DNA of 64,000 nucleotides, taken from the NCBI RefSeq assembly GCF_003628145.1, contig NZ_RBZV01000001.1:777558-841557 (forward strand). Direction: 5' to 3'. Of this stretch, positions 11,840 to 33,012 are shown piece after piece (the stretch's first letter is position 1; each line of letters opens with the position of its first letter). Both the position numbers and the translations under genes were made by a program. The DNA is from Trinickia fusca (lineage in GTDB: Bacteria; Pseudomonadota; Gammaproteobacteria; Burkholderiales; Burkholderiaceae). The notes under the pieces were generated by a model, which was given only the letters and a program-made list of their open reading frames with translations, was not told the DNA's origin and made no database searches.

Positions 11840-12210
11840 TGAACGAGGTAGCAACGGCAATCGTGATCGAACTTGCCAAGGAGTTCATAGGGCTCATGCG
11901 GGAATTGGAACCGAAGTGGTCAAAAGCTTACTATCGGTTCCGATCAGAGGGAGCCAGGTATGGTTCAAACGCCTCTTACGTAAGCGATTCCAATGTTTCG
12001 CTCATTGGAGCCCTGAAGTGGGGGGACTTCTACGAACGCATGAATGAACACGGGGCGAAGCTCCTTGAAACCTTGGGGAAAACTCAAGGGGTGTTCCTCC
12101 TCACAGTAGACGCTGAGTTTAACTACGACGTCCAATTTGATTGGGAAGACTTGCGGCGTTGGGAGATCACCAAGCTAAACGGAGAGACGGGACTGCCTCG
12201 GGGAATTTAA
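11839..12210 (+). CDS. YezG-like (DUF600) immunity protein for the Rhs nuclease
   Basis: This is a 123-residue soluble protein whose ATG shares its A with the TGA of the toxin gene (TGATG), the tight coupling typical of toxin-immunity pairs. It has the N-terminal K-W-S-K-A-Y-Y-R-F pattern and acidic C-terminal half seen in the YezG/DUF600 family, whose members neutralise nuclease toxins of the YeeF type. It has no signal peptide or membrane segment, which fits a cytoplasmic partner of a nuclease. Base composition is as low in GC as the toxin tip and unlike the Rhs body, so tip and immunity gene probably moved together. The family call rests on pattern recognition; the immunity role is strongly suggested by position. 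Confidence 0.75.
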   Translation: MNEVATAIVIELAKEFIGLMRELEPKWSKAYYRFRSEGARYGSNASYVSDSNVSLIGALKWGDFYERMNEHGAKLLETLGKTQGVFLLTVDAEFNYDVQFDWEDLRRWEITKLNGETGLPRGI

Positions 12211-12218
12211 GCTTCTTC

Positions 12219-16976: not shown

Positions 16977-18206
16977 ATGGCGCGAGACGATACGGTGGGC
17001 CCGGCGACGGGGGGAAGCCTGCGGGAACGGATGGACGAGGCTCATATCCAGCCGGGCGGCTGGTTGCTGGCCAGCGATGTGGAAGGCCCACTGTTCCTCG
17101 GAGATTTCATTGCCGAGGCGTTGTCAGCCTGCTTGAAGCCGTCCGGCGGAGTGGTGGAGGCCGTGCCGTCCTATGGCCAGATTCTTTACGGGGAAGGTTA
17201 TGCCGCCTTCAGCGCGGATACCGATGCGCTGCGGCGGCCGGAAGGGGCGAGATGCGGCAGGACGTCGCCCGAGGGTGGCTACACGCTGGCGCAGGAGGGC
17301 ACCGACACCATCTTCGCCTTGCCCCTACTGCTAGCGGCCGGAGCCGATTATTCCTATCTGGAACGGCTGGCACTGCGCTCGCCAGAGACGCCCGGCGCGG
17401 CGGAAATGGCACGGCGGCTCGACGAGATGGGCTGGCAGCGTGTGGGCATCACCACCGCGCCCCAGCAGCCGTATCGGTTGGTCGCCGAGCGTTGCGGCTG
17501 GTTAGCAGCAGGCCGGTTGTTGGGCTCTCCGTTTCCCCTGATGGAGGCTGAAGCCCTGCTGCGCCGGCTCGGCCGTTGGGACGTCGAGATTGACGGGGTG
17601 AGGGCGTATTTGCGCGATGCCTACGCGCTGATAGACCGGCACTCTGAGGTGTGGCTGGACGGTTCGACGTGGAGGCGGCATTTCTCGGAGGCCGGCAGGA
17701 AACTATTGCGGCAGCGTTTTCGGCGCTTCTATCGCGAGGAACTGGGCATTTCCTATTCGCATGGCGAGCGGGCGGGCCGTTCAGCTTCCACTGCGCTGGG
17801 TCGGGTCATCGAGGCCTGCGGCATGGTGGGCGACCGTGCCAAGGCGGCGCTGGCGCTGGGCTTGGCGCGCCGTGGGGGTGGCCTGGACAGGCTGGTGACG
17901 ATGGGCGACGGCGCCAACGATGCGCTGATGCTACGCCGCGCATGCTGGTCGATTGGCGTCAACGGGCCGGCCGCGGCGCGGGCGGCGGCTATTGGCCTGG
18001 TGACCGACGATATGCGGCATGTGCTGGTGCTGCTGCAGCTGATCGAACAAGGCGGCAACGATGTCGAGGATGTGATCGGCCGCGCGCAGGCGGAGTTGCG
18101 CGGCGCGGCGCTGGTTCATCGCGGCGGTGACGGCGTGTCGGCAAAAATCGCGGAAAAGCACCAGCTGATGAAGAGGCGCCTGCGTGGTGAGTTCGTCACC
18201 TACTGA
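16977..18206 (+). CDS. HAD-superfamily hydrolase-like protein with a D-x-E motif I (EhaR-like)
   Basis: A 409-residue protein. Motif I reads A-S-D-V-E-G-P-L (D34, E36), so the usual second catalytic aspartate is glutamate. Motif IV is V-T-M-G-D-G-A-N-D-A-L-M-L, typical of small-molecule HAD phosphatases. A large insertion between them would form the cap. The D-x-E-G-P pattern resembles the archaeal EhaR-type HAD group. The role is unknown. It overlaps the downstream EamA exporter gene by 23 bases, so the two are translationally coupled and may act on one metabolite, the HAD protein processing it and the exporter removing it (inference). Confidence 0.75.
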   Translation: MARDDTVGPATGGSLRERMDEAHIQPGGWLLASDVEGPLFLGDFIAEALSACLKPSGGVVEAVPSYGQILYGEGYAAFSADTDALRRPEGARCGRTSPEGGYTLAQEGTDTIFALPLLLAAGADYSYLERLALRSPETPGAAEMARRLDEMGWQRVGITTAPQQPYRLVAERCGWLAAGRLLGSPFPLMEAEALLRRLGRWDVEIDGVRAYLRDAYALIDRHSEVWLDGSTWRRHFSEAGRKLLRQRFRRFYREELGISYSHGERAGRSASTALGRVIEACGMVGDRAKAALALGLARRGGGLDRLVTMGDGANDALMLRRACWSIGVNGPAAARAAAIGLVTDDMRHVLVLLQLIEQGGNDVEDVIGRAQAELRGAALVHRGGDGVSAKIAEKHQLMKRRLRGEFVTY

Positions 18207-19068
18207 CCCCGACGGCGCGGCCGCCATCGGGCGATCGGGGAGGCCGGGCAGGAGCCGGCGGTGGTCGGGCGCCAGCCTGGCGTTGGTGTCGATGTGCTGC
18301 GTCCAGTTCGGCGCGGCACTGTCGGTACCGGCGATGCAGAGCGTGGGCCTGTTCCGCGGCGCTGCGCTGCGGCTGGCCTTTGCTGCGCTGATTTTGCTGT
18401 TGTGGCGGCGCCCACCGCTGGCGACGCTGCGGCGCGAGCCGGCGTTGATTCTGCTCGGCATGGCGATGGCAGGCATGCTGCTGGGTTTCTACGCGGCCTT
18501 GCGCACACTGCCCCAGGGCCTGGTCGTGGCCATCAGCCTGCTGGGGCCCCTGTTGTTGGCATGGCGGCAGGACCGCAGGGGCTGGAAGTGGCCGGTGCTG
18601 GCCCTGCTCGGCATTCTGGCACTGTCCCGGCATGGAGAGCTCTGGGTCATCGATGCGGCCGGCTTGGCCTGGGCCGCGGTGTCGGCTGGGTGCTGGGCCG
18701 CCTATATCGTCCTGCTTCGGCGCGCGGGCGAGGCCTGCCGGGGCGAGGAAGGCGTGGCGCTGGCCTTGCTGGTGGCCGCGTTGTCGGCGGCACCCTGGGC
18801 CTGGCTGGAGGGAGGCGCTTGGCCTGATTGGACGATTCTGCTGCAAGTCGCTGGCCTGTCGCTGTTGATGCCCGCGCTGCCTTATTTGCTGGAGCAGGCC
18901 GCGCTGCGCCGGATGCCATCCGCTTCGTTCGGTATGCTAATGAGCGTGGAGCCGGCCATCGCGGTCCTGGCCGGAGCCGCGCTGCTGGGCCAGACGCCGA
19001 CGTGGTCGCAACTGGCCGGAACGGCTCTTGTGATAGCGGCCAGTCTGGGTTCGCTGGCCGAATCCTAA
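18184..19068 (+). CDS. EamA/DMT-superfamily exporter (RhtA-like)
   Basis: A 294-residue inner-membrane protein with about ten hydrophobic segments in two EamA halves, for example I-L-L-G-M-A-M-A-G-M-L-L-G-F-Y-A-A-L in the first half and A-V-S-A-G-C-W-A-A-Y at the start of the second. RhtA-type members export threonine, homoserine or other amino acids. The GTG start at 18184 lies inside the end of the HAD gene; the first ~27 residues are polar and basic, so a later start is possible. The gene ends in ordinary sequence with no clear terminator. Confidence 0.88.
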   Translation: MVSSSPTDPDGAAAIGRSGRPGRSRRWSGASLALVSMCCVQFGAALSVPAMQSVGLFRGAALRLAFAALILLLWRRPPLATLRREPALILLGMAMAGMLLGFYAALRTLPQGLVVAISLLGPLLLAWRQDRRGWKWPVLALLGILALSRHGELWVIDAAGLAWAAVSAGCWAAYIVLLRRAGEACRGEEGVALALLVAALSAAPWAWLEGGAWPDWTILLQVAGLSLLMPALPYLLEQAALRRMPSASFGMLMSVEPAIAVLAGAALLGQTPTWSQLAGTALVIAASLGSLAES

Positions 19069-19605
19069 ACCGAACAAAGCCAGACTCAAATGTCCGCTCT
19101 CCGGCCAAATGGAAATGTCCGGATTTGAGGGGTTCAGACTATTTGTTCTCAGTGATTAATACACTGGAGGTAACCACCTATTTTTGGTGGGCAATACCTG
19201 TCATCACATCTAGGTCAGTCTATCTGTAAGGCCGAATAAAAATCAAGGGCCGCCAAGTGGCATGAAATTCTTTTCGATATCAAATTCATTAAAATAGCGA
19301 TTGAATCCTGATTTTCATGCTTACGCGTCCTTGATTTTTCAAAATATGCATGTAGAATCAATCGCCATAATTCGCAGTCAAAAATTCCGAGGTCGCATGC
19401 AATTTATTCAAGCTATTTGCTGTGATTTTTCAGGGCGCGTTGTGCGTCAGCGTTAGGTATGGCGCCATAAAACGCCATTCTTCGTCGGTTACGTCGCTCG
19501 GGTAGGGACGTACTTCCCACCCCCATTCTGAAGTGCGCCACATACGTGCAGAACATGCAGCGTAGGGGCGCGGCACATCAATCAATCAGCCGGAAGCGAG
19601 CGTAT
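19069..19605. other. AT-rich leader region of the biosynthetic operon, with an imperfect inverted repeat
   Basis: The region is clearly lower in GC than its surroundings and precedes the eight-gene operon on the plus strand, so it should hold its promoter. An 11-base near-perfect inverted repeat, GCGATTGAATC (19297-19307) and GAATCAATCGC (19355-19365, one mismatch), could be an operator. The right part contains the transposase remnant listed separately. No intact gene is seen. Confidence 0.45.
19430..19543 (-). pseudogene. N-terminal remnant of an IS5-family transposase
   Basis: On the minus strand an ATG at 19543 opens a 37-codon frame containing P-S-D-V-T-D-E-E-W-R-F-M-A-P-Y-L-T-L, the conserved start of IS5-group transposases, and then hits a stop at 19430. 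The rest of the element is gone. It sits directly upstream of the biosynthetic operon and marks its left edge. Confidence 0.8.
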
Positions 19606-20715
19606 ATGTTGAATATCGATCATATTGCCAAGCAGAGCCCTCCGCTTCAGTCCTGGGAATGGCCTCCTGTGGCCGTGGCGTCACAGGGAAAGCTTGATGC
19701 TGACTTTGACGCCTTCATGGCGATGTCGTCGGAGAAGCAGCGCGAATATCTGAAGCAGCTACGCAAAGACCCGAAAGAGCATTCTTTCCTGCTGCATGAA
19801 TTCCTCGGCATCGTCAGCGGCTACTTCTTCGGCTACCAGGACAGCCCGCTTTTTCTGGACGTCGACGACGACTTCGAGATCAATATTCAGAAGGCGAAGA
19901 TCGTTCTTGAGCGTGAAGCAAAGGATTACTGGCTTCAGCTGCCTGAAACGGAGGAGATCCCGGACGTCGAAACCGCCGTCCGACGCCTGCGTGAAATCGC
20001 GGCCAGCAACCCCAGCCTGTCCCATCCGCTGTTTCCGTACCTGCACAACCATGCCAGCGCCGAGGGGCTGCGAGTTTTTCTGTGGAACGAGGTCATCCGC
20101 AACGAAGTGGTCGACGACGAAGTCGCCATGCTGAGCGTCGGCATGCAAGGGCTGATGAAGGTCAGCACGGTGTCCAACCTCTGGGACGAGCTCGGCCACG
20201 GCACGCTGCGCAACCTGCACACCTACTGGCTGCGCCGCTTGCTCGACGGACTCGGAACGGTGGAAGACTTCATGCAGTACCGAACGACCAGCCGTCCCTG
20301 GTTCACCAAGATCACGACCAACATCTTCAACATCCTCCTGTCACGGCCTGGTCTGAAATTCATGAAGTACGGCTGGTTCCTGACCAACGAAGGCTGGGTC
20401 GAGCCGCACTTCCGAGACATTGTCGAGGGCATGAATCGGGTTGGTTTCGTCTCCGAGGATATCCAGGTCTACTTTACGGCCCACATCAGCATCGATCCGA
20501 TACATACCAGCGAGCTGATCGACGGCCTGCGGCTGCAAGTCCCGGCGCTCAGGCCCAAGGAGTTGGGGCAAATCGTCGCCGGCGCGCATATGGCGGTTGC
20601 GGCTGCCAAGGCCCAGTACGACTACGTGTACCAGTACATCAAGGAAATCACTGAAAAAAACACGCCCGCCCAGGCGATCAACGCCAACGATCCGCAACCT
20701 GTTGAGGAGGGTTGA
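19606..20715 (+). CDS. Heme-oxygenase-like diiron oxygenase (HDO family, Haem_oxygenas_2), first gene of the biosynthetic operon
   Basis: A 369-residue protein from the ATG at 19606 (ggaagcgag upstream); a GTG at 19546 is in frame but lies in the transposase remnant. Candidate ligands are the acidic helix around D-D-E-V, D194-E195-L-G-H198-G, and H293-I-S-I-D297-P-I-H300, matching the E/H and H-x3-D-x2-H pattern of HDO enzymes. HDO relatives carry out N-oxygenation, oxidative C-C cleavage or desaturation of amino acids and fatty acids. It lies 3 bases before the GHMP kinase gene. It is expected to act on the amino acid or peptide built by the downstream enzymes; its exact reaction is unknown. 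Confidence 0.8.
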   Translation: MLNIDHIAKQSPPLQSWEWPPVAVASQGKLDADFDAFMAMSSEKQREYLKQLRKDPKEHSFLLHEFLGIVSGYFFGYQDSPLFLDVDDDFEINIQKAKIVLEREAKDYWLQLPETEEIPDVETAVRRLREIAASNPSLSHPLFPYLHNHASAEGLRVFLWNEVIRNEVVDDEVAMLSVGMQGLMKVSTVSNLWDELGHGTLRNLHTYWLRRLLDGLGTVEDFMQYRTTSRPWFTKITTNIFNILLSRPGLKFMKYGWFLTNEGWVEPHFRDIVEGMNRVGFVSEDIQVYFTAHISIDPIHTSELIDGLRLQVPALRPKELGQIVAGAHMAVAAAKAQYDYVYQYIKEITEKNTPAQAINANDPQPVEEG

Positions 20716-20718
20716 GTC

Positions 20719-21720
20719 ATGGAGCAAGTCACGCTCATGCAGTCGGAGAGTTGGAGCCGCTACGACCAACGCGGCAGCGAAGCGCAGCGTACCCAGGCGA
20801 GGGCAGCGAGTCCGAAGGCAGGGCTGGGGGTTGGGGTTGGCGTTGCCATCGGTCACCACGGCGAAGTGTTGCAAGGTGGGATTGACCTCGACGGCAACGG
20901 TATTCGCCGCTTCCTGATCACCTTGCCGTGGCCGACCATCAAGTCACACGCCAAATTTCTCGCGCTTCGCAATAGCGAATTGATGGCGGACCCAGAGCGG
21001 AAAAGCAAATCGCTCGCGGCGGCGCGCCTCACCATGCTGCACCTGGGCATCGAGAATTACGGCGGGTTTCTCGAAGTCATGTCGGATGCCGGTGCAGGGT
21101 TGGGAATGGGTTCCTCGACCAGCGATGTCGTAGCGAGCATCCGCGCGGTGGCGAATGCGTTCGGTGAATACCTGAACCCGATGGAAGTGGCGAAGCTGGC
21201 CGTCATGTCAGAGGTCGCTTCGGACTCCATCATGTTCGAGGACCGTGCAGTGGTGTTCTGCCAGCGCGAAGGCGTCGTGCTCGAAGCCCTCGAAGGACGG
21301 CTTCCGCCGGCGTTCGTCATCGGATTCAACACCTGCCCGGAAGGTGGCGGCGTCTCCACCACGCACTTCCCGCTCCCGGACTATACGCAGAAGGAGCTCG
21401 AGGCCTTCCGGCCGTTGATCGGCGCATTGCGCGCTGCGGTCAGAACGCAGTCCGTGCAGCTGATGGGCAATGTGGCCACAGCAAGCGCGAAGATCAATCA
21501 GCGCTTCCTCAAAAAGAATCGCTTCGAGGAGCTGCTGGCCCTGGCCGATGCAAACGGCGCGTGCGGTTTGCAGGTCGCGCATAGCGGGACCGTTGCCGGC
21601 TTCCTGCTCGACCCCAGGGACAGGAACATCCCCAAGCACATCAGCGCCATCAAGCGCGGCTTGGCAGCGCTGGGCATCCATGAACTCTGGTATTTCGACT
21701 CCTCGTGGGAAACGCAATGA
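20719..21720 (+). CDS. GHMP-family amino-acid kinase, PduX-like (putative L-threonine O-kinase)
   Basis: A 333-residue protein. The N-terminus has G-H-H-G-E-V-L-Q-G, like the G-T-C-G-E-L-V-Q-G of PduX. The ATP-binding GHMP loop is G-A-G-L-G-M-G-S-S-T-S-D near residue 130, and a C-terminal G-T-V-A-G-F segment matches the third GHMP motif. PduX phosphorylates L-threonine on its side-chain oxygen. Here the phosphate would create a leaving group for the PLP enzyme encoded next, whose ATG overlaps this stop (ATGA). The same kinase/PLP-enzyme/lyase trio is proposed for 2,3-diaminobutyrate formation in friulimicin and uridyl-peptide antibiotics. Serine or homoserine remain alternative substrates. 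Confidence 0.8.
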   Translation: MEQVTLMQSESWSRYDQRGSEAQRTQARAASPKAGLGVGVGVAIGHHGEVLQGGIDLDGNGIRRFLITLPWPTIKSHAKFLALRNSELMADPERKSKSLAAARLTMLHLGIENYGGFLEVMSDAGAGLGMGSSTSDVVASIRAVANAFGEYLNPMEVAKLAVMSEVASDSIMFEDRAVVFCQREGVVLEALEGRLPPAFVIGFNTCPEGGGVSTTHFPLPDYTQKELEAFRPLIGALRAAVRTQSVQLMGNVATASAKINQRFLKKNRFEELLALADANGACGLQVAHSGTVAGFLLDPRDRNIPKHISAIKRGLAALGIHELWYFDSSWETQ

Positions 21721-22775
21721 ACAACTATCACCAGGCCATTTACCGGACGTACGAAGAGTCCGTGCTGTACCCGAAGATGTTCCAGTTGCAGGACAACCTG
21801 TATGCGGCGAGCTTTTTCCTGATGAAGCTGCTCCCGGCCAAATACATCCTGGACGCCGCGCGCCGGGAAGGACGGCTTCATCCAGGGTCCACGGTTGCCG
21901 AGACGACCTCCGGCACCTTTGGTCTTGCGCTCGCCATCCTGTGCAATCACTACGGGTACAAATGCATCCTTGTGAGCGACCCCGTGCTTGACCCGCTGCT
22001 GAAAAACCGCATCGAGAGCCTCGGCGCATCTGTCGATATCATCGAGCAGCCTGCCGCCGTGGGCGGTTACCAAAAGCCGCGGCTCGAACGCTTGATGCAG
22101 TACCTGGACCAGATCGAGGGCAGCTTCTGGCCCATGCAGTACGCGAACCGGAGCAATCCCGGCTCCTACGCTTTGCTGGCGGAGTATTTGTCCACCGTTA
22201 TCGGCAAGATCGATTGCCTGATCGGCACTGTCGGCTCGGGCGGCTCGATGTGCGGTACGAGTTCGTATCTCAGGGAAGTCAACCCGTCGATGCATGTGAT
22301 CGGGATCGATACCGTCAGAAGCGTCCTGTTCGGACAGCCGGACGGCAAGCGCCTGGTGCGGGGCCTCGGGAACAGCATCATGCCGGAAATTCTCGACCAT
22401 ACCGTGTTCGACGAGGTGCACTGGCTGACTGCTGCCGAGACGTTCTACGCGACGCGTGAGATCCACAACCGCCACGGACTGTTTGTCGGCGCAACCAGCG
22501 GTGCCGCATACCAGGTGGCCAAGCACTGGGCAGCCGCCCATCCCGACAAGACGACGGTATTCATTTGCCCGGATGAAGGCTACCGATACCTCGATAACGT
22601 CTTCGACGACCCCTGGCTGAGCAAGATGGGCATCGAGCTTCGCGCGTGTCCGGAAGCGCCCCGGGTGGTCGAGTCGCCACGCGTGGATATGCCGCAATGG
22701 TCGATGATGCATTGGAATCGCCGCACGCTTCAGGAGGTGCTTGACGCGGAATCGAGCCGGGAGCTCACGACATGA
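21717..22775 (+). CDS. PLP-dependent fold-type II enzyme, cysteine-synthase-like (putative beta-replacement enzyme)
   Basis: A 352-residue protein whose ATG overlaps the kinase stop. K37 (F-L-M-K-L-L) aligns with the Schiff-base lysine when counted from the conserved helix. T-T-S-G-T-F-G corresponds to the substrate loop T-S-G-N-T-G, and G-T-V-G-S-G-G-S-M to the phosphate cup G-T-G-T-G-G-T. The usual N-P-T-G-S before the lysine is replaced by A-A-S-F-F-L-M, so substrate specificity has probably changed. In context it would replace the phosphate of O-phosphothreonine with an amine donor, probably aspartate, giving the adduct split by the lyase encoded two genes on. It overlaps the next gene by 4 bases. 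Confidence 0.82.
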   Translation: MNNYHQAIYRTYEESVLYPKMFQLQDNLYAASFFLMKLLPAKYILDAARREGRLHPGSTVAETTSGTFGLALAILCNHYGYKCILVSDPVLDPLLKNRIESLGASVDIIEQPAAVGGYQKPRLERLMQYLDQIEGSFWPMQYANRSNPGSYALLAEYLSTVIGKIDCLIGTVGSGGSMCGTSSYLREVNPSMHVIGIDTVRSVLFGQPDGKRLVRGLGNSIMPEILDHTVFDEVHWLTAAETFYATREIHNRHGLFVGATSGAAYQVAKHWAAAHPDKTTVFICPDEGYRYLDNVFDDPWLSKMGIELRACPEAPRVVESPRVDMPQWSMMHWNRRTLQEVLDAESSRELTT

Positions 22776-23995
22776 GCACACCGCTTTTCGTTTTCATCGA
22801 AAGCAACACCAGTGGGACCGGCGTCTATTTCGTGGAGGAGGCAAAGCGTCAAGGGCTGCGCCCTGTCGTTCTGACTTCCAACCTCAAGACCTATCAGGGG
22901 CGGTTTGCGGAAGATGTCGCCCTCCATGAGGTGGACACCGCCGATGTGGACGCGATTCTTGACTGGATTCGCCGGTTCGGCGACGGCCAGATCAACGGAG
23001 TCTATTCCTCCTCGGATTATTTCGTGGGCACGGCGGCGCTGGTGGCCGAACGCCTCGGCTTGCCGGGGCCCAGCTCCCTCGCCATACGCGAATGCCGGGA
23101 AAAACTGACCCAGCGCAACCGACTGTCGGACGCGGGCCTGCTGATGCCCACCTCGATTCTGGTGACGGACAAGCAGCAGATCGCGACGGCATATGAAAAG
23201 GCCGGCCCTCGTGTGGTCATCAAGCCTCAGACCGGATCGGGCAGCTTTGGGGTGCGCTATGCGGATTCCCTGGACGATGCCCATGAGTGGGCTGCCAAGC
23301 TGCTCGAGATCGGAACCAACGAACGAGGACAGCCTTTCGGGGGCGTACTGATCGAGTCGTACTTGTCCGGAAGCGAATACTCGGTGGAGGTGTTCGACTC
23401 AGAGGCCGTCGTCGTCACCGAAAAGCACCTGAGCGAGATGCCCTTCTTCATTGAAGTAGGCCACGATATGCCGGCTGCGGTCACCGAGAGCACCGAAACC
23501 GCATTGATGGCTTGCGCACAGGCTGCCGTCAAGGCTTTGAACCTGGGTTGGGGCCCCGTCCATGTCGAACTGCGGAATACGGCCGACGGGCCCGTGATTA
23601 TCGAAGTCAATCCGCGCCTCGCGGGAGGTTTCATCCCTACGCTGGTCAAGCTGTGCACGGGTGTCGACCTCATTGCCGCCACGGTCGCAAAGGCGGCTGG
23701 CACCCCTATCGAAGCCAGGAAGACCTTGTCCCGTCATGCAGGTATCCGCTTCTTCAGGGTCGAGCGTGCCGGACGCCTGACGGACGTCGAGAACTGGATT
23801 CACGTCGAAGAGGATGGGGCGTTGGTGGAGGCCAAGCTCTACGCCAGGATTGGCGATGAGCGCCAAGTTCACCACGATTTTCGCGATCGAATCGGCCATG
23901 TCATCGCCAGTGGCGAAGACCGCGCGCGCATCGTGGAGCGGCTCGACCAGGCGATGAATCGCCCTCGATTCAAATGGGTGTCTGCTCATGAGTGA
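22772..23995 (+). CDS. ATP-grasp ligase 1 (amino-acid/peptide ligase type)
   Basis: A 407-residue ATP-grasp enzyme of the carboxylate-amine ligase group. The N-terminal domain has a Rossmann-like start and an S-S-S-D-Y-F segment. The ATP-grasp core shows V-V-I-K-P-Q-T-G-S-G-S-F-G-V, then a glycine-rich V-L-I-E-S-Y-L-S-G-S-E-Y-S-V-E-V segment, and V-I-I-E-V-N-P-R-L-A-G-G, the metal-binding acidic/N residues. Such ligases activate an amino-acid carboxylate as an acyl phosphate and couple it to an amine. It lies between the PLP enzyme and the lyase and overlaps both (ATGA and 8 bases). It probably forms one amide bond of the product. A role in activating the amine donor is the alternative. Confidence 0.85.
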   Translation: MSTPLFVFIESNTSGTGVYFVEEAKRQGLRPVVLTSNLKTYQGRFAEDVALHEVDTADVDAILDWIRRFGDGQINGVYSSSDYFVGTAALVAERLGLPGPSSLAIRECREKLTQRNRLSDAGLLMPTSILVTDKQQIATAYEKAGPRVVIKPQTGSGSFGVRYADSLDDAHEWAAKLLEIGTNERGQPFGGVLIESYLSGSEYSVEVFDSEAVVVTEKHLSEMPFFIEVGHDMPAAVTESTETALMACAQAAVKALNLGWGPVHVELRNTADGPVIIEVNPRLAGGFIPTLVKLCTGVDLIAATVAKAAGTPIEARKTLSRHAGIRFFRVERAGRLTDVENWIHVEEDGALVEAKLYARIGDERQVHHDFRDRIGHVIASGEDRARIVERLDQAMNRPRFKWVSAHE

Positions 23996-25466
23996 TACCG
24001 GACGCATCAAGAAGCACCTCGACCTCGACATGCAGGCACTGGTGTTCCGGCCGTTGGAGGATGAAGCCCTTGCGCAAGAGCTGGGCTACATCGCGATGGT
24101 CGATCAGGCGCACGTGCTCATGTTGATTGATAGAGGAATACTCCCGGAGAAGGACGGGGCCACCCTGTTGAAAGAAATCACGCGACTGATCGCCGAACGC
24201 TTTGCCTCCTTGCGGGGGAAAGCGCCGATCAGGGGGCTCTATCTCCTCTATGAAAACCATCTGATCGAGAAGACCGGGGACCGGATAGGCGGCATGTTGC
24301 AGGCCGGCCGGTCACGCAACGATCTCGGGGCCACCATTTCCAGGATCCGGGCGAGAAAGCCGTTGCGCGCCTGCGTGGAAAGTGGGCTCACGCTGATCGA
24401 GACACTGGGGGCAAAATCACGAGAGTTCGCATCCGTCGTCATGCCGGCGTACACGCATTACCAGCCTGCCATGCCCGTCACCCTTGGACACTATCTGGAT
24501 TCGATTGCGCAAGCTTTGCTGCGCGATGTGGACGGGTTGCTGCAGGCCTCCAGCTCCCTCGAGTGTTCCCCGCTGGGAGCCGGGGCGTGCGGCGGAACAA
24601 GCTTCCCGATCGCGCCCGAGGAAACGGCCGCTCTGTTGGGCTTTACGAGCGTTGCCGCGAATTCGATCGATGCTGTCGCGAGCCGCGATCACGTTTTGCG
24701 GTTGCTGGCCGCCGCGGCCATTCTCGGGTTGACGATCAGCCGGTGCGCCTCGGACCTCATGCTGTGGTCCACCTACGAATTCGGTTTCATCCATCTTCCG
24801 GATGAACTGATCGGCTCCAGTTCCATGATGCCCCAGAAGCGCAATCCATTCTTGCTCGAGCACGTCAAGGGCAGAAGCGGGTCGCCGCTGGCGTGCCTGC
24901 AACATGCAGCGATGGCCACCCATGCCGCTCCCTACGGTAATTCCGTCGCCGTCGGGACGGAGTCCGTACGCGGGTTCGAGGAGGCCATGGAGGAAGTCCG
25001 CTCCTGTCTCCTGATCCTGCAAAAGCATATCGCCCTCATGGAACCCCGGGCAGCGCGCATGGAGGAAGTAGCCAAGGCCGCAAACACGGCCGCGACCTTT
25101 GTCGCGGAAATGCTCGTGAGGGACGCGGGCATGAGCTTCCGCGATGCACACCACCAGGTGGGCGCAAAGATCCTGGAGGCAGAAAAGATCGGCGTGAACG
25201 GCGCAGTGCATGCCGCACAGTCGCTATTGACGCTCGAGCCCGAGTCGCGATCGACCATGGCCTCACCGGGCCTCGCGATGAGCGCTGCTCGATACGGGGC
25301 AGGGCCGGGACGCGAACCATCATCGGAGAACAGTATCGGGGATCGCTGCACGGCTCAACGGCAATTGCTTGAAGCCAGAATGACTCCATGGCGCACCGCG
25401 GAAACCACCCTGAGTGATCGCATCACGAAGTTGCTCGAAAAGCACGGTCACTTGCAGGCGGCGTAG
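23988..25466 (+). CDS. Argininosuccinate lyase/fumarase-superfamily lyase (putative diaminobutyrate-releasing lyase)
   Basis: A 492-residue ArgH-like enzyme. Family marks are G-G-M-L-Q-A-G-R-S-R-N-D, Y-T-H-Y-Q-P-A-M-P-V-T-L-G-H, and the catalytic-serine loop G276-S-S-S-M-M-P-Q-K-R-N-P287, the superfamily signature. The members use a serine anion to expel fumarate from aspartyl adducts. No arginine genes are adjacent, and the setting points to a specialised lyase that removes fumarate from an N-(diaminobutyryl)-type aspartate adduct, leaving a free amine. A true argH role is the alternative. It is the fifth gene of the operon and is followed by a 110-base gap. Confidence 0.87.
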   Translation: MSDTGRIKKHLDLDMQALVFRPLEDEALAQELGYIAMVDQAHVLMLIDRGILPEKDGATLLKEITRLIAERFASLRGKAPIRGLYLLYENHLIEKTGDRIGGMLQAGRSRNDLGATISRIRARKPLRACVESGLTLIETLGAKSREFASVVMPAYTHYQPAMPVTLGHYLDSIAQALLRDVDGLLQASSSLECSPLGAGACGGTSFPIAPEETAALLGFTSVAANSIDAVASRDHVLRLLAAAAILGLTISRCASDLMLWSTYEFGFIHLPDELIGSSSMMPQKRNPFLLEHVKGRSGSPLACLQHAAMATHAAPYGNSVAVGTESVRGFEEAMEEVRSCLLILQKHIALMEPRAARMEEVAKAANTAATFVAEMLVRDAGMSFRDAHHQVGAKILEAEKIGVNGAVHAAQSLLTLEPESRSTMASPGLAMSAARYGAGPGREPSSENSIGDRCTAQRQLLEARMTPWRTAETTLSDRITKLLEKHGHLQAA

Positions 25467-25576
25467 CGATTGACTCTTTCGTTTCGTTTCGCGTCGCCCC
25501 TCGCGACGCGAACGGCGAGATTGCATCTATCGAATCCAAGAGCGGTATTCCTTCCTGAATGAAGACGAGAGGTTTG

Positions 25577-26767
25577 ATGATCACCAAGAAGAGCACTGTC
25601 GACACCCAGGCCCGACCCATGTACTGGCTGACCCTTTCCAGCCTGCTGCTGGTGACAGGCGCCGTGAACTTGCAGGTGCCTCTTTACCAGCACTACGCTG
25701 AAATCAGCGGGGCGAGCCACACCATTTCGGCCCTTGCGTTCGCCGCCTATGTAGGAGGACTCGTTCCGATCCTGCTGTTATTTGCTGGTGCGTCTGATCG
25801 CCTCGGCCGCAAGCCGGTCGTGATGCTGGCGTTACTCGGCTCCCTGGCCGCGACTATTCTGATGTCGGTCTTTCCCTCGATGGGGTGTCTCTTCGTTGCG
25901 CGAGTGCTTCAGGGCATGGGAGTCGGTCTCGGCATGGGCACCGTGACGGCCTATCTCAGCGAGCAGCGCCCGGGAGCCGAGAAGACCGTTTCCGCCCACG
26001 TCGCCTTGGCTTCATCGCTGGGCTTCGGCGGTGGAGCGCTTTTCACGACGGTCAGCCTCATGCTGCTCGATACGTCTTTGCCTTTGAGTTTCGTGGTTGC
26101 CATGATCGCGATGGCGATTGTATTGGTCGCCATGCCGTTCGCACCGGCAACGGTCAGAAACAAGGACAGCGCGCTGACCCGCCTGCCGAAATTTCTTCCA
26201 GGAAGTGCGGCGCCGTATCTCGGCATTTGCGCGGCCTGGAGCGTTTCGGGCCTCGTGATCGCATTGCTGCCCGCGCAGCTGGCGAAGCATCAGCTGGCCA
26301 GTTGGGCAGGTCCTGCGCTCTTTCTGGTCAACGTCGTCGGCATCGTGTGCCAGCCAATGGCCCGCAAGCTCAGCCCCGGGATCAATCTCGCGATTGGCGC
26401 GCTGCTGATCCCGCTCGGCTACTTGATCATGATTCGTGGCGCCAGCGCGGGCAACGTGCCATGGCTATTGGTGGGCGCTTCCGTAGCGGGCGCGGCCTGT
26501 TATGGGTTCACCTATCTCGGAGGACTCACGCATATCGTCGAGCGTTCGGGTTCCGAAAAGGCGCGCTCCGTTTCAGGCTACTTTCTCTTTGCCTATTTCG
26601 GATTTGCGGCCCCCAGCATCATGATGGGGGTGGTGGCGGACAAAACCAGTATTTCCGCCGCACTGGAGGTGTTCGCGTACGGCATCGCGCTCGTTCACAT
26701 GCTGCTTCTACTGATGATCTTTGCGCCTGCCCGGTTGGCGCCACTGTTTAGAAGGGATGCGCAATGA
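25577..26767 (+). CDS. MFS transporter (probable exporter of the operon's product)
   Basis: The ATG at 25577 is preferred because gagagg lies just ahead of it; the ATG at 25559 has no comparable site. The 396-residue protein has about twelve hydrophobic segments and the MFS loop 2-3 pattern G-A-S-D-R-L-G-R-K-P-V. A glycine-rich G-M-G-V-G-L-G-M-G-T-V-T segment resembles motif C of drug exporters. It overlaps the PhzF gene by 4 bases, so it belongs to the operon and most likely provides export and self-protection. Confidence 0.9.
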   Translation: MITKKSTVDTQARPMYWLTLSSLLLVTGAVNLQVPLYQHYAEISGASHTISALAFAAYVGGLVPILLLFAGASDRLGRKPVVMLALLGSLAATILMSVFPSMGCLFVARVLQGMGVGLGMGTVTAYLSEQRPGAEKTVSAHVALASSLGFGGGALFTTVSLMLLDTSLPLSFVVAMIAMAIVLVAMPFAPATVRNKDSALTRLPKFLPGSAAPYLGICAAWSVSGLVIALLPAQLAKHQLASWAGPALFLVNVVGIVCQPMARKLSPGINLAIGALLIPLGYLIMIRGASAGNVPWLLVGASVAGAACYGFTYLGGLTHIVERSGSEKARSVSGYFLFAYFGFAAPSIMMGVVADKTSISAALEVFAYGIALVHMLLLLMIFAPARLAPLFRRDAQ

Positions 26768-27711
26768 ACTATCCATACATCCTTGCTGACGTCTTCACCT
26801 CGGAACCGTTCGGGGGTAATCCCTTGGCCGTGTTCCCGAGCGCTGACGGCCTCACGGCGGAAGAGATGCAGCTCATCGCCCGCGAGTTGAATCTTTCCGA
26901 GACGTCGTTCGTGTTTTCTCCAAACGAAGGGAAGGCCACACATACCGTGCGTATCTTCACCCCGTCGAAGGAGCTTCCCTTTGCCGGGCACCCGACGATA
27001 GGAACCGCGGTCGTCATCGCCGGGTTCGGGAGCCATGACAATGCGACCCAGCCCCTCGAGCTCGTGTTTGAGGAAGGGGTGGGCAACGTGCCGGTGAAGG
27101 TAACCCGGCTTGAGGATCAGTCATATTTCGCGACACTGAAAGCGCGAGCCGCGACCGTGGACTATGACGTCCCCTCGATCGCTGCGCTCGCGAAACTTTT
27201 GTGCCTTCCCGTCGAAGCGGTGCGAGCAGATGTGTTGAAGCCGGCCGCAGTGTCCTGTGGCGTTCCCTTTACGATGATCCCCTTGGCGAACCGGGATTAT
27301 CTTGCGGCTTGCACCCTCAACATGGAGGCATGGCAGGCGCTCCTTGCGGGGCGCGATGCCGCCCAGGTCTATCCGTTTGTCGTCGATCACGATCGACGCG
27401 AGGTGCACGTGCGGATGTTTGCTCCCGCGTTCGGGCAGCCGGAAGATGCGGCGACCGGAGCCGCTGCCGCGGCGCTGGGAAGCTTCCTCAGTCAGTCCTA
27501 CGATCTTCGAGATATATCCGAGTGGCGCATACATCAAGGAGCTTACATGGGAAGGAAGAGTGTGCTCAACGTTAAAGTCGTCCCCCACCTGCAGGACGCA
27601 GGAGCCGTCGAGCTGGGAGGCAGCGCGGTCGTCATCGGGGAAGGGAAGATCTATGGCCGTCTCCTAGCCCGCTTCCACAATTCTCACGACGAGGGAGCCT
27701 GCCATGCGTAA
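26764..27711 (+). CDS. PhzF-family isomerase/epimerase
   Basis: A 315-residue protein with the two-lobed DAP-epimerase-like PhzF fold signatures. They are V-F-T-S-E-P-F-G-G-N-P-L-A-V-F at the N-terminus, N-L-S-E-T-S-F-V carrying the catalytic glutamate (near residue 46), F-T-P-S-K-E-L-P-F-A-G-H-P-T-I-G, and the C-lobe D-A-A-T-G-A-A-A-A-A-L-G. PhzF enzymes use acid/base chemistry for isomerisation or racemisation. In D-cycloserine synthesis a related enzyme racemises an amino acid before an ATP-grasp enzyme acts, a plausible parallel here. The gene overlaps the MFS gene (ATGA) and the following ATP-grasp gene (8 bases). Confidence 0.9.
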   Translation: MNYPYILADVFTSEPFGGNPLAVFPSADGLTAEEMQLIARELNLSETSFVFSPNEGKATHTVRIFTPSKELPFAGHPTIGTAVVIAGFGSHDNATQPLELVFEEGVGNVPVKVTRLEDQSYFATLKARAATVDYDVPSIAALAKLLCLPVEAVRADVLKPAAVSCGVPFTMIPLANRDYLAACTLNMEAWQALLAGRDAAQVYPFVVDHDRREVHVRMFAPAFGQPEDAATGAAAAALGSFLSQSYDLRDISEWRIHQGAYMGRKSVLNVKVVPHLQDAGAVELGGSAVVIGEGKIYGRLLARFHNSHDEGACHA

Positions 27712-28966
27712 CCAGGCATTCATTCTATTCGGCGGGTACACGCGGTCGCTTTACCACCATTTCATCCCTTTGCTCATCAAGATGGGCATGAAGGTCCTGG
27801 TGATCGATCTTCCGGGAAGCGAGTCTCTTCGCAATGACGCAGGCTGGGAGCCCGGTATGGTGGAGGCCGTGTTCTGCGACGGTGAAGATTTGCCGACCAT
27901 TCTTGCCACTTGCAAGGGTTGGGAGGAAAGCTATCTCCTCCAAGGTGCGCTGAATACCATCGAGGAATTCACTTACAGCAGCGCGATCGCCATCGACTAT
28001 CTGAAGCTGAAGGGGCCGGGAATCAAGGCTTGCACGATAGCGAGCAACAAGGCGTTGCAGCGCGCGTACTTCGAGCAATGGAGCCCGGCCTATCGGTACA
28101 TTACCCAGCGTGAAGGCCTCCCGCAGGGATGCCCGTATCCTTCGATGCTGAAAGCGACCAACCGTCATGGCGGAAGCGGTGTCATTCGGGTCAACAGCGA
28201 GGCGGAGGCCCTTGTCGCCTTGTCGAGTTTCGAACCGGACGAGCGGCTCAATTTCGAAGAGTACGTGGTGGGTAGCGACTTTTCGATCGAGACGATCGTG
28301 AGCGACGGGGAGATCGTCTTCCAGAGCCTCACGGAGGAGGACAATCTGTACTCGAATGGGTATCACATGGAAATGGGATACAACATTCCGGCGGTCGGTT
28401 TTGAGCCTGCATTGATCGAAAAAGCGTATGACATCAACCGTCGCGTTCACGAAGGCATGGGCTTTCAGTACGGGACGTCGCATGCGGAATACCGCATCAC
28501 GCAAAGCGGCGAAATACGCCTGATCGAAATCGCGGCGCGGCCTCCTGGTGACGGGATCTTTGCCCTGTATCAGCTTTCTACCGGGAAGTTGATCGAGGAG
28601 TCCGTGCTGGCTTCCGTCATGGGAAGGGAGGCCAGTTATCCCTTGCCGCTACGCTATACGAAGCAGACCTGGCTACGGCATGAACCCGGCATCTTGCAGG
28701 GTATCGACCATCCTCATGAGGGTGTCGAGATCAACTATTTTCCGGAGAGCAAACGGCATCCACGGGAATACTCGTTCGACGCGGCACAACCGCCCACTTT
28801 GCGCGAAATCGTGCTCGAGCATCGCAAGGGAGAGCAGCTGGGCGAGATGGCCGGGCAGGGGTCGCGCCTGGGCTGGGTCATTATCGATGCGCCTTCGCCG
28901 CAGTTGCTTGCCCGGGGTACTGAGGAGTTTCTGGACACCATCAAGGTTTCAATGGGTGAGGCATAG
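27704..28966 (+). CDS. ATP-grasp ligase 2
   Basis: A 420-residue ATP-grasp protein, distinct from ligase 1. The core shows S-M-L-K-A-T-N-R-H-G-G-S-G-V, then L-N-F-E-E-Y-V-V-G-S-D-F-S-I-E-T, and a metal-binding end I-R-L-I-E-I-A-A-R-P-P-G-D-G, where the usual N-P-R is replaced by A-A-R. A C-terminal domain of ~110 residues follows. Two ATP-grasp ligases in one operon suggest two amide bonds, as in a tripeptide or an amidated dipeptide. It is the last gene of the operon and is followed within 25 bases by scrambled remnants, which mark the right edge of the cluster. Confidence 0.83.
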   Translation: MRNQAFILFGGYTRSLYHHFIPLLIKMGMKVLVIDLPGSESLRNDAGWEPGMVEAVFCDGEDLPTILATCKGWEESYLLQGALNTIEEFTYSSAIAIDYLKLKGPGIKACTIASNKALQRAYFEQWSPAYRYITQREGLPQGCPYPSMLKATNRHGGSGVIRVNSEAEALVALSSFEPDERLNFEEYVVGSDFSIETIVSDGEIVFQSLTEEDNLYSNGYHMEMGYNIPAVGFEPALIEKAYDINRRVHEGMGFQYGTSHAEYRITQSGEIRLIEIAARPPGDGIFALYQLSTGKLIEESVLASVMGREASYPLPLRYTKQTWLRHEPGILQGIDHPHEGVEINYFPESKRHPREYSFDAAQPPTLREIVLEHRKGEQLGEMAGQGSRLGWVIIDAPSPQLLARGTEEFLDTIKVSMGEA

Positions 28967-29172: not shown

Positions 29173-29206
29173 CACTGGATAAGGCTTACGGCACCGTCGA
29201 GGTCAA

Positions 29207-29482
29207 ATGAAGAAAGGACTTTTTATTCTTGTGGCGGTTCTGGTTGCTCTCATAGGTGGTTGGGAGATAGCAGCAGCTATCGCGCGGCTTCCGGGGGAGA
29301 TGCCTGACTTTTTGGATGACTTCATCCGTTGGTCTTTGAGGATGATTGGCGCCGTCCAGTTGGAGAACACGGACGATATTGAGGTGATCGCTTTTTTGCT
29401 GGCGTTTGCCGTTTGCGCGGTGCTTGTCGGTGTTGTTGAGGCGTCCTGTTGGGCCGTGATTCGGCGTCTTCGTCCCAGATAG
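29207..29482 (+). CDS. Small two-helix membrane protein, function unknown
   Basis: A 91-residue protein with gagg about 8 bases before the ATG. Residues 4-26 and 61-85 are strongly hydrophobic, separated by an acidic, probably extracytoplasmic loop with D-D-F and E-N-T-D-D-I-E. The C-terminus is basic (R-R-L-R-P-R), which predicts a cytoplasmic tail. It stands between two transposase remnants and is lower in GC than the nearby operon. I do not recognise a family. Confidence 0.6.
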   Translation: MKKGLFILVAVLVALIGGWEIAAAIARLPGEMPDFLDDFIRWSLRMIGAVQLENTDDIEVIAFLLAFAVCAVLVGVVEASCWAVIRRLRPR

Positions 29483-29535
29483 TAGAGTTGCCGGCCTTGG
29501 CGGCCGGCTGATGACGATTCGATCGGCGTAGCGAG

Positions 29536-29745
29536 ATTGCTGCTGGGCTTCGAGCGCCGACGCGACACGAGACCTTGTGGCCCGTGCTCACGCAGTTGAC
29601 CGACCAGCCGGCGAATCTGCCGTGTCGTCAGCCCGAGGCGCTCAGCCGCGCGCCACGGCTTGAGCTTGCCGTCCGCCACGGCCTGGATCACCTTCAAGCG
29701 GTCGAGTTCTCGCATGTTCAATGTCACCAGTGCAGTCGAATGCAT
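29536..29745 (-). pseudogene. Truncated ISNCY-type transposase (N-terminal helix-turn-helix part only)
   Basis: From an ATG at 29745 (or 29715) the minus strand encodes M-R-E-L-D-R-L-K-V-I-Q-A-V-A-D-G and then T-T-R-Q-I-R-R-L-V-G-Q-L, the helix-turn-helix start of ISNCY-group transposases. Homology ends near S-K-P-S-S-N (29536); the frame continues only as an antisense reading across the small membrane gene. No catalytic domain remains. Confidence 0.8.
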
Positions 29746-30137
29746 GGCCGGCTCCGTTGTCCCGCAGGGAGCTGCCAAGCATACCGAGGTCAAAACGCGA
29801 CATTTCTAAATAGCCAGAACACGACATTTGCATATAGCTCTAACATCAAAACCGTTGATAATTCATGTTATGTCAAATCATATGTCTTTCAACCACCACG
29901 GCAGGCACACACTCAGTGAGAACATCACACCCGGTTGGCCGCTGCGAGGGATGCTGGGGCCACCGGCACAGGAACGATCGATATCTCAGTGCGAGCCTCT
30001 CGCATGCTTCATGTGCGGCGCCCCAACCATCTCGGCCCGATCTTGCTCATGCTGATACCTGAAAATCAAAGCATGGACGCTCCCCGCTCATGTTCGATGA
30101 ACGTGAGCAGGTGTATCCGAGCGATTCAGTCGTTCAC
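29746..30137. other. AT-richer non-coding stretch between IS remnant and effector gene
   Basis: I see no recognisable gene or strong hairpin. Short open frames exist on the plus strand but lack ribosome-binding sites and family features. Base composition is poorer in GC than the core genes, in line with the surrounding acquired segment. Confidence 0.4.
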
Positions 30138-31764: not shown

Positions 31765-33012
31765 ATGGATACTGCCATCGCGTTTCCAGCCAATCCTGCG
31801 CCCGCACCAATCGATCTTCCGCGCGCTTACGAAACGCCTCCGCTCGAAATGCAGCTAGAAATTGTCTTCAAGCTCAGCGAACGTTGCAATCTGAACTGCG
31901 ACTATTGCTACTTCTTCCATGCTGGCGACGAGACATGGAAGCAGCATCCGCCCACCGCGAGCGTCGAGGTGTTTCAAGACGTTTTACGCTTTGCGGTCGA
32001 CGCCTCCCGGCAATACGGTATCCGTCATGTCAGCATCATTTTTCATGGCGGCGAGCCTCTGCTCATCAAGAAATCGCGGTTCGCCGAGATGTGCCGTGCG
32101 TTACGCGCACAAGAGCACGTCGATTTGCGATTCGACATCCGTTTGCAAACCAACGCGACGTTGATCGACGACGAGTGGGTCGCCCTGTTTTGCGAGTACG
32201 GCGTAAAAGTGGGCGTGAGCCTGGACGGACCGCGCGATATCAACGACGCGCATCGTCTCGATATGGCCGGCAACAGCAGCTACGACGCGACCGTGCGCGG
32301 CCTGAAGGCACTTCAGGCTGCCGCCGACGCCGGCAGGCTCAGGCAGCCTGGCGTCATCTGCGTGGCCGACGGCAAAATCGATGGCGCTCGCGTGTACCGA
32401 CATTTCGTCGATGACCTCGAGCTGAAATCGATCAGCCTCCTCACTCCCGATTTCACCCACGACACAGCCCCCGACGATGAAGCGATCGCCGGCGTCACGA
32501 ATTTCCTCATGGGTGCCCTCGCCGAATGGCTTCGCGACGACGACGCGACGATTCGCGTGCGTCTGTTCTCCGAAGTCCTGCAGGTCTTGCTCGACGACGA
32601 CCGCGCACAGCGCGCTTTGGCGCGTCATCAGGATCTTCGACATATCGTGTCCGTTTCGTCGAATGGGGAGCTGGGCCCGGAGGACACGTTGCGCACCACG
32701 CATCTGCGATTTTCGTCGATGGGGCTCAACGTCCGTACGCATGGCCTCGGCGACGTGCTCTCCTCCCCTGTCTGGGCCGAGCTGACAGCCGCGTCGCAGA
32801 CGATCCCCGCTGGCTGCCGCGGCTGCGAATGGTGGGCATGCTGCAAGGGAGGACGATTGATCAATCGGTATGCGTCGCAGAACGGCTTCGGCAACCCCTC
32901 TCTGTACTGCGGCGCCCTACAGGAGCTCTACAGCGCGATCGGCGCATCGTTGATCCGCTCCGGTGTTCCGGCCATGGCGATCTTTCAGCGCTTGGGGATA
33001 GCACACGCGTGA
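31765..33012 (+). CDS. Radical SAM/SPASM peptide maturase, FxsB-like (cyclophane-forming type)
   Basis: A 415-residue protein. The radical SAM 4Fe-4S motif is C41-N-L-N-C45-D-Y-C48, followed by F-H-G-G-E-P-L and a conserved Q-T-N-A-T-L-I strand. The C-terminal SPASM-like domain has C-R-G-C-E-W-W-A-C-C-K-G-G and a later Y-C, ligands for auxiliary clusters. This is the arrangement of anaerobic-sulfatase-maturase-like enzymes of the FxsB/XyeB group, which crosslink aromatic side chains in three-residue motifs of ribosomal peptides. The following gene overlaps its stop (GTGA) and encodes an HExxH modifying protein. A precursor with an F-x-S-x-x end lies downstream, completing an FxSxx-COOH system. 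Confidence 0.87.
   Translation: MDTAIAFPANPAPAPIDLPRAYETPPLEMQLEIVFKLSERCNLNCDYCYFFHAGDETWKQHPPTASVEVFQDVLRFAVDASRQYGIRHVSIIFHGGEPLLIKKSRFAEMCRALRAQEHVDLRFDIRLQTNATLIDDEWVALFCEYGVKVGVSLDGPRDINDAHRLDMAGNSSYDATVRGLKALQAAADAGRLRQPGVICVADGKIDGARVYRHFVDDLELKSISLLTPDFTHDTAPDDEAIAGVTNFLMGALAEWLRDDDATIRVRLFSEVLQVLLDDDRAQRALARHQDLRHIVSVSSNGELGPEDTLRTTHLRFSSMGLNVRTHGLGDVLSSPVWAELTAASQTIPAGCRGCEWWACCKGGRLINRYASQNGFGNPSLYCGALQELYSAIGASLIRSGVPAMAIFQRLGIAHA

Follow-up and report, generated by a model that had tools for sequence, protein, structure and literature searches.

An eight-gene operon of Trinickia fusca predicted to build a small peptide around a 2,3-diamino acid

The genes for 2,3-diaminobutyrate in friulimicin- and pacidamycin-type pathways encode a kinase, a cysteine-synthase-like enzyme and an ArgH-like lyase; the ArgH-like lyase Pac17 reportedly mediates formation of the diamino acid. 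The mangotoxin operon, mboABCDEF, encodes a haem-oxygenase-like diiron oxidase (HDO) and two ATP-grasp ligases, and passages of its description report that the tripeptide was made in vitro and that at least 25 kinds of cluster combine an HDO with ATP-grasp genes (PMC13185094). The operon described here shares gene families with both kinds of system. It occupies positions 19606–28966, on the plus strand, of a 64,000-nucleotide stretch of the Trinickia fusca genome (the window; C1:777558–841557 of 6.1 Mb), for which a first-pass annotation had proposed a small peptide product containing 2,3-diaminobutyrate. The reading preferred here, which is given a probability of about 0.42 as a whole, is that the operon specifies a self-contained pathway to a short peptide that is assembled by ligases and contains an N-oxygenated 2,3-diamino acid.

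Layout of the operon and its copy in Sulfuriferula nivalis

The listing of open reading frames (ORFs) gave eight intact and tightly packed genes, and Pfam and NCBIfam assigned all eight to the families that the first-pass annotation had named. The features were as follows, PLP denoting the pyridoxal-phosphate enzyme and MFS the major facilitator superfamily:

19606..20715, + strand: HDO, haem-oxygenase-like diiron oxidase, HrmI-like (Haem_oxygenas_2, E 2e-25; ligands E195, H205, E262, H293, D297, H300)
20719..21720, + strand: KIN, PduX-like GHMP kinase, probably an L-threonine kinase (PF00288, E 1e-8)
21717..22775 (alternative GTG start 21705), + strand: PLP, SbnA/cysteine-synthase-like beta-replacement enzyme (PALP/SbnA-like, E 7e-69)
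22772..23995, + strand: GRASP1, ATP-grasp amino-acid ligase with LAL_C2 (PF13535 and PF18603; N half of PRK02186)
23988..25466, + strand: ASL, ArgH-superfamily lyase, probably fumarate-releasing, not ArgH (PF00206 Lyase_1, E 9e-83)
25467..25576, + strand: gap, with a probable remnant (25519–25569) of the 3' end of a TIM-barrel isomerase gene (Sulfuriferula comparison)
25577..26767, + strand: MFS exporter (PF07690; 64% identity to Sulfuriferula MFS)
26764..27711, + strand: PhzF-family isomerase (TIGR00654, E 2e-73, above cut-off)
27704..28966, + strand: GRASP2, second ATP-grasp ligase, probable peptide-bond former (PF13535; 54% identity to Sulfuriferula)
18184..19068, + strand: EamA exporter, RhtA-like, possible associate (upstream, 537 bases away)

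HDO and KIN lay 3 bases apart, and KIN overlapped PLP by 4 bases when the latter was started at ATG 21717 (16 bases with GTG 21705). The PLP-GRASP1 and MFS-PhzF overlaps were 4 bases each and those of GRASP1-ASL and PhzF-GRASP2 were 8, while 110 bases separated ASL from MFS (MFS start 25577; 92 bases with ATG 25559). The ORF coordinates therefore reproduced the earlier description of overlaps of 4–8 bases, a 3-base spacing and a single 110-base gap. Promoter-like sites numbered 2, against a shuffle mean of 3.5, and terminator-like sites 5, against 9.1, both being fewer than in shuffles; one promoter-like site fell at 19331–19358. The earlier statement that no non-ribosomal peptide synthetase (NRPS) is present also held for the window: comparison of its ORFs with two NRPS proteins gave zero matches at E 1e-15, the giant ORF at 26–11839 was rejected as an NRPS because it is an RHS-repeat protein, and the longest closed ORF otherwise had no more than 640 aa.

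A tblastn search of plasmids with the kinase returned 100 records, of which the best, a Sulfuriferula nivalis plasmid of 45 kb (NZ_AP021882.1, locus L003), carried all eight genes in unchanged order. Identity between the window and Sulfuriferula proteins was 72% for HDO, 62% for KIN, 73% for PLP, 58% for GRASP1, 52% for ASL, 64% for MFS, 52% for PhzF and 54% for GRASP2, and the five overlaps (4, 4, 8, 4 and 8 bases) were the same in both. Retention of gene order and of identical overlaps at 52–73% identity is more than chance would provide. The plasmid copy rules out an operon confined to one genome; the operon is known from two bacteria of different families, and a third copy was not met with in searches that fell short of being exhaustive.

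The Sulfuriferula operon had two additional genes, of which one, encoding a xylose-isomerase-like TIM barrel, separated ASL from MFS and the other, encoding an AstE/AspA-like hydrolase, came last. The former corresponded in position to the 110-base gap of the window, where 25519–25569 specified 17 residues that were 53% identical to the C-terminus of the Sulfuriferula TIM-barrel protein (E 0.43; next unrelated match 0.66). This remnant and the Sulfuriferula gene showed an equal 8-base offset to the MFS start. Although E 0.43 is not significant alone, the exactly homologous position led to the interpretation of the gap as probably the deletion scar of a TIM-barrel gene. No AstE homologue was found by tblastn in the window, to which the searches for AstE and TIM-barrel genes were confined.

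The four-gene cassette and the oxygenase

Profile searches were applied to 89 loci, comprising the window, 8 plasmid loci picked from the 100 records and 80 loci obtained by scanning the contigs of GTDB species for the kinase; two incomplete copies of the window's own genome (L001 and L002) were dropped from the tally, of which the printed total was 91. The scan, which rested on two short motifs, missed Sulfuriferula and was not exhaustive, found 107 kinase relatives, and none of the best 80, which were kept, exceeded 50% identity. With score limits of 200 bits for KIN, 250 for PLP, 300 for GRASP1 and 200 for ASL, all four genes were present in 25 loci, KIN and PLP only in 43, KIN, PLP and GRASP1 in 2 and KIN only in 19, the smaller classes being inflated by contig ends and by PLP matches below the limit. 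ASL was always accompanied by GRASP1 (25/25 lyase-bearing loci). Gene order agreed in 21 of the 25, with ASL preceding GRASP1 in L031, L056, L066 and L090. An NRPS-like ORF lay within the stretch in 15 of the 25 four-gene loci, as expected for a cassette that supplies a building block. HDO, PhzF and GRASP2 of this kind were seen in the window and Sulfuriferula only, among the 89 loci.

Gene fusions involved GRASP1 on both of its sides. In two Catenulispora loci, GRASP1 and ASL formed a single protein; the one fusion scored, from L055, matched PRK02186 at 721 bits, over the cut-off of 625, while the two separate genes of the window scored 319.7 and 406.1 bits, both below 625, with GRASP1 matching the N half of the model. 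Kitasatospora sp. NBC_00039 carried a PLP-GRASP1 fusion (PLP match 18–354, GRASP1 338–747) beside kinase, lyase and NRPS genes, its lyase scoring 230 bits to the ASL profile without showing the SS-MPQK pattern described below. Fusion to both neighbours places GRASP1 functionally between PLP and ASL. Judged by gene content, the cassette is a quartet of which GRASP1 is the fourth member, and this leaves one dedicated peptide ligase, GRASP2, whose sole PDB match at E 0.001 was the L-amino acid ligase BL00235 (E 7e-6). The trio of kinase, PLP enzyme and lyase named by the first-pass annotation was thus correct as to the PduX-like, SbnA-like and non-ArgH character of its members, and incomplete in having missed the GRASP1 present in all 25 loci and in the fusions; assembly of the peptide by both ATP-grasp ligases is improbable.

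The KIN family profile scored 89.5 bits against one Klebsiella protein annotated as L-threonine kinase, beside cobD, and 22.5 bits against one ThrB, from E. coli; hhalign gave E 5e-21 on the PduX side and 3e-6 for ThrB. By these scores KIN is PduX-like rather than ThrB-like, as first proposed, a homoserine kinase being ruled out, and its substrate is probably L-threonine. PLP scored 232.2 bits (E 7e-69) against the SbnA equivalog TIGR03945, without reaching the cut-off of 349.95; its top PDB match was SbnA, with the catalytic lysine aligned. The lysine that had been picked out from the letters, K37 (counted from ATG 21717), aligned with the M-K of SbnA and was invariant in 8 aligned PLP proteins. 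In a tree of 69 PLP proteins, the window and Sulfuriferula sequences were sisters (100/100), and the four-gene label was clustered on more than one branch, with 5 changes against 20.7 in shuffles.

ASL was only 26% identical to the genome's own ArgH, which is encoded on another contig and scored 606 bits, and itself scored 278.7 bits against the ArgH model TIGR00838, just under the cut-off of 279.5. All 25 cassette lyases kept the SRND, TH-Q and SS-MPQK motifs and lacked QEDK, a motif with an arginine-side role in ArgH that was present in the genome's ArgH. The separate ArgH and the loss of QEDK rule out a duplicate ArgH, and the earlier view that this is not the housekeeping lyase was supported. 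Neither of the two sequence-based outcomes that would have refuted the first-pass proposal, a homoserine-type kinase or a housekeeping lyase, was thus obtained. The ASL family profile aligned at full length with PDB 6g3d/6rx8, presumably ethylenediamine-disuccinate (EDDS) lyase. Passages on EDDS lyase describe the joining of amines and fumarate to give N-substituted aspartates (PMC12363623). Such an alignment, together with the kept motifs, fits the joining of phosphothreonine and aspartate followed by release of fumarate.

An aldolase gene was present in 9 of the 25 four-gene loci and two Bosea plasmids had a threonine synthase gene close to their kinase-PLP pair; with the RhtA-like exporter gene upstream of the operon, this suggests threonine as the precursor. 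The exporter matched the RhtA model at E 1e-37 (129.9 bits, the cut-off of 354 not being reached). An EamA transporter gene lay between GRASP1 and ASL in an Azospirillum cassette, and none was present in the Sulfuriferula operon as annotated.

Several other loci with the kinase were of note. Lyase-less kinase-PLP pairs were carried on plasmids of root-nodule bacteria (Bradyrhizobium, Paraburkholderia and Bosea; L006, L007, L009 and L010), the L007 PLP protein having a long C-terminal extension. An acyl-homoserine-lactone synthase gene and a LuxR gene lay close to the kinase-PLP genes of Bosea L010 (11822–13246), and another such synthase gene lay near the Sulfuriferula operon, on the opposite strand (L003, 20114–20668), hinting at quorum control. 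In Methylobacter luteus (L011, 9989–11605), the kinase that was nearest to those of the window and Sulfuriferula in the tree (100/99) occurred without PLP and was followed by an ORF resembling a transposase by eye; this is perhaps a broken relative of the operon.

The six HDO ligands were invariant in 11 of 11 aligned HDOs, and the spacings E-x9-H and H-x3-D-x2-H were those of the SznF residues given in an excerpt of PMC11705231. The protein had the expected helical fold; an initial structure prediction, built on three sequences, was of low quality (pLDDT 43). HrmI, an N-oxygenase of Streptomyces griseoflavus with a presumed role in hormaomycin biosynthesis, ranked first among solved relatives by both sequence and structure, sharing the fold over 308 residues and six aligned ligand positions. 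However, identity was only ~20%, and the substrate of HrmI is lysine, its product being the N6-hydroxy-L-lysine in the title of PDB 9nh9. MboA and VarO were not among the HDO matches listed by sequence or structure, the presence of MboA in the searched PDB copies being unchecked. These resemblances tip the balance slightly towards N-oxygenation as the reaction of HDO.

HDO genes were also observed elsewhere. In the same genome, a second SbnA-like PLP enzyme adjoined an HDO (L122, C12:493000-512999, at 4676–12755), among desaturase, FAD oxidoreductase, metallo-beta-lactamase-fold, DUF3291 and PLP decarboxylase genes, in what appears to be a separate biosynthetic cluster. Another HDO gene of this genome, which abuts an MFS gene and is accompanied by a divergent ATP-grasp gene (L123, C40:208000-224000, at 6397–11521), is possibly a miniature HDO-ligase cluster. 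HDO genes near LysE-type amino-acid exporter genes (L094, 7665–10788; L116, 3725–6465) suggest a free, exported amino acid as the product of those enzymes.

Proposed pathway and rival explanations

In the proposed pathway, KIN would phosphorylate L-threonine, PLP would exchange the phosphate for the amine of L-aspartate, and ASL would release fumarate to give 2,3-diaminobutyrate; the step of GRASP1 would fall between those of PLP and ASL and, in the simplest case, would attach to the intermediate an amino acid that serves as carrier or protecting group. Thereafter, in an order that is itself conjectural, HDO would hydroxylate or further oxidise an amine of the diamino acid or of its peptide, PhzF would rearrange a product by proton transfer, GRASP2 would form the peptide bond and MFS would export the product. 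A peptide is the likely product and, with somewhat less assurance, a diaminobutyrate-type building block is probable; the exported compound would possibly serve as a chemical weapon or antibiotic. In a more specific form of this pathway, which is distinctly unlikely, the four-gene cassette would form 2,3-diaminobutyrate with its intermediate held on a carrier amino acid attached by GRASP1, HDO would next convert the beta-amine into a nitro group or a hydroxylamine, and GRASP2 would package 2-amino-3-nitrobutyrate, or the hydroxylamino form, as an exported peptide; the beta-nitro amino acid could then mimic the carbanion intermediates of aspartate- or methylaspartate-type lyases. If true, this would make the Trojan-horse peptide a warhead of a new type.

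Passages on a gausemycin-type cluster of Streptomyces sp. B188M101, with a 2,3-diaminobutyrate product, record cysteine-synthase-like and argininosuccinate-lyase-like genes (PMC12471526). Four points weigh against the pathway. A related gausemycin-family cluster is reported in the same passages to be without both genes, the products of the family containing 2,3-diaminobutyrate (PMC12471526). Part of a paper on mureidomycin derives pacidamycin diaminobutyrate from threonine and ammonia, which mismatches the aspartate step (PMC10714638). The lyase-less KIN-PLP pairs need another product; they may go no further than the adduct with aspartate, which could chelate metal. Finally, Pantoea L109 has KIN, PLP and GRASP1 without the lyase, and GRASP1 may therefore act without ASL. 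The ammonia and gausemycin passages lowered the weight given to diaminobutyrate and to the pathway as a whole, and raised that given to amidation, the alternative considered next.

GRASP1 and ASL could be an amidation pair, for which SAICAR formation and cleavage by PurC and PurB is an established precedent: aspartate would be joined to a carboxylate and fumarate released, leaving a primary amide, while KIN and PLP would form the diamino acid with nitrogen taken from ammonia or some other donor. Ammonia is indeed the donor named for diaminobutyrate in the passage cited above, the GRASP1-ASL fusion exists, and ASL was found only with GRASP1 (25/25), while KIN and PLP occurred without either in 43 of 89 loci. 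Nevertheless, the Kitasatospora fusion unites GRASP1 with PLP; KIN, PLP and GRASP1 occurred with ASL not seen in Neorhizobium L058, Pantoea L109 and L076 (where the contig ends 1.3 kb upstream of the kinase); and a C-terminal amide is ill-suited to an NRPS building block, so that amidation was considered unlikely. A more credible alternative concerns HDO, which, like MboA, BesC or PolF, could catalyse desaturation, acetylene formation, C-C cleavage or ring formation instead of N-oxygenation, with the diamino acid as the ligation partner. Passages of PMC13185094 describe varied reactions of HDOs and give the finished tripeptide as the substrate of MboA; set against the HrmI resemblance, such a role was regarded as doubtful.

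The product might instead be a metal-binding aminopolycarboxylate, similar to aspergillomarasmine or EDDS, rather than an antibiotic peptide. PLP resembles SbnA, and on a Streptomyces melanogenes plasmid (NZ_CP109020.1, L126, 4118–9879) the genes next to a kinase-PLP pair encode an iron ABC transporter and a DUF364 (heavy-metal chelation) protein, which suggests that this locus makes a metallophore. In the operon, however, a fumarate-releasing lyase would destroy such a product, the eight genes include no metal transporter or receptor, and the ligase, oxygenase and isomerase would be left unexplained; a chelator is very improbable here. Decay of an imported operon, in which loss of the TIM-barrel and AstE genes resulted in an inactive pathway or a different product, would account for the apparent scar and for the lack of an AstE homologue in the window, but the eight remaining genes are open, with overlaps and motifs conserved, which makes decay quite improbable.

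Distribution, surroundings and comparison with known systems

A search of 61 genomes gave the kinase in 1, the window's own, and in 0 of the 60 relatives. Among 399 genomes of the order, HDO (E up to 1e-30) had matches in 3: that of the window, one with the match at the Sulfuriferula coordinates, and one (G319) with a 38% relative that adjoined transporters and lay outside any such operon. At E up to 1e-5, 4 of 200 order genomes matched, the two additional ones being distant. HDO in 1 of 398 phylum genomes and GRASP2 in 1 of 369 class genomes were both the window's own; Sulfuriferula was evidently outside these draws, since it would otherwise have matched. The G+C content was ~0.60 for the operon and ~0.66 for the first 10 kb of the window, and a helix-turn-helix transposase or ISNCY-like remnant lay directly 3' of the operon (29203–29878); the low G+C and the adjoining remnant fit horizontal arrival. 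In a DNA-level comparison with plasmids, the sole match was a transposase region beyond the operon. Further away in the window, the 3,937-aa RHS-repeat protein (26–11839, +) had LysM and a C-terminal DNA/RNA non-specific endonuclease domain and was polymorphic-toxin-like, and a radical SAM protein gene (31765–34214, +) overlapped a downstream gene without a Pfam match.

Among the papers listed by literature searches (HDO with ATP-grasp, PhzF and diaminobutyrate genes), which included the mangotoxin report, none was recognised as describing the eight-gene set. The operon may be among the 25 or more kinds of HDO and ATP-grasp cluster already reported, and its novelty is therefore not claimed. 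For the diaminobutyrate genes, gene-by-gene evidence was not found in the texts read; a partial source reports that mureidomycin-type activity required a homologue of npsG, a gene with a proposed part in diaminobutyrate formation (PMC4572928).

Compared by architecture, the mangotoxin operon is the closest to that of the window, as both have an HDO, two ATP-grasps, free-standing ligases instead of an NRPS and a small peptide as actual or predicted product. The five mangotoxin enzymes described in the passages of its report include no kinase, PLP enzyme, lyase or PhzF; conversely, an MboB-type reductase and MboE deiminase are not among the families of the eight proteins here, and a diamino-acid cassette is added. 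A pathway of this size, if correctly read, would be small enough for full reconstitution in vitro, as with mangotoxin, and the range of reactions known for HDOs would widen if this one takes a 2,3-diamino acid as its substrate.

The Sulfuriferula operon differs in its TIM-barrel isomerase and AstE-like hydrolase genes and the nearby acyl-homoserine-lactone synthase gene. A conjugative plasmid of Pantoea agglomerans (NZ_CP099731.1, L109, 6869–14287) resembles the window in having KIN, PLP and GRASP1 homologues, a second, glutathione-synthetase-like ATP-grasp and an MFS gene, with no NRPS annotated in the stretch; it differs in that the stretch is without lyase, HDO and PhzF and carries an M17 aminopeptidase and a methyltransferase. 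It is likely to be a small-peptide operon.

The likeness to friulimicin- and pacidamycin-type genes, a comparison of families and not of sequences, lies in the kinase, cysteine-synthase-like enzyme and ArgH-like lyase; the differences are that no NRPS is present here and that an ATP-grasp is a fourth member. This suggests that the supposed three-enzyme route to diaminobutyrate has an overlooked fourth member, whose place in the pathway is made directly testable by its fusions to both neighbours. If the proposed pathway is right, an amino-acid supply that elsewhere accompanies large NRPS genes has here been joined to a minimal, ligase-built peptide pathway.

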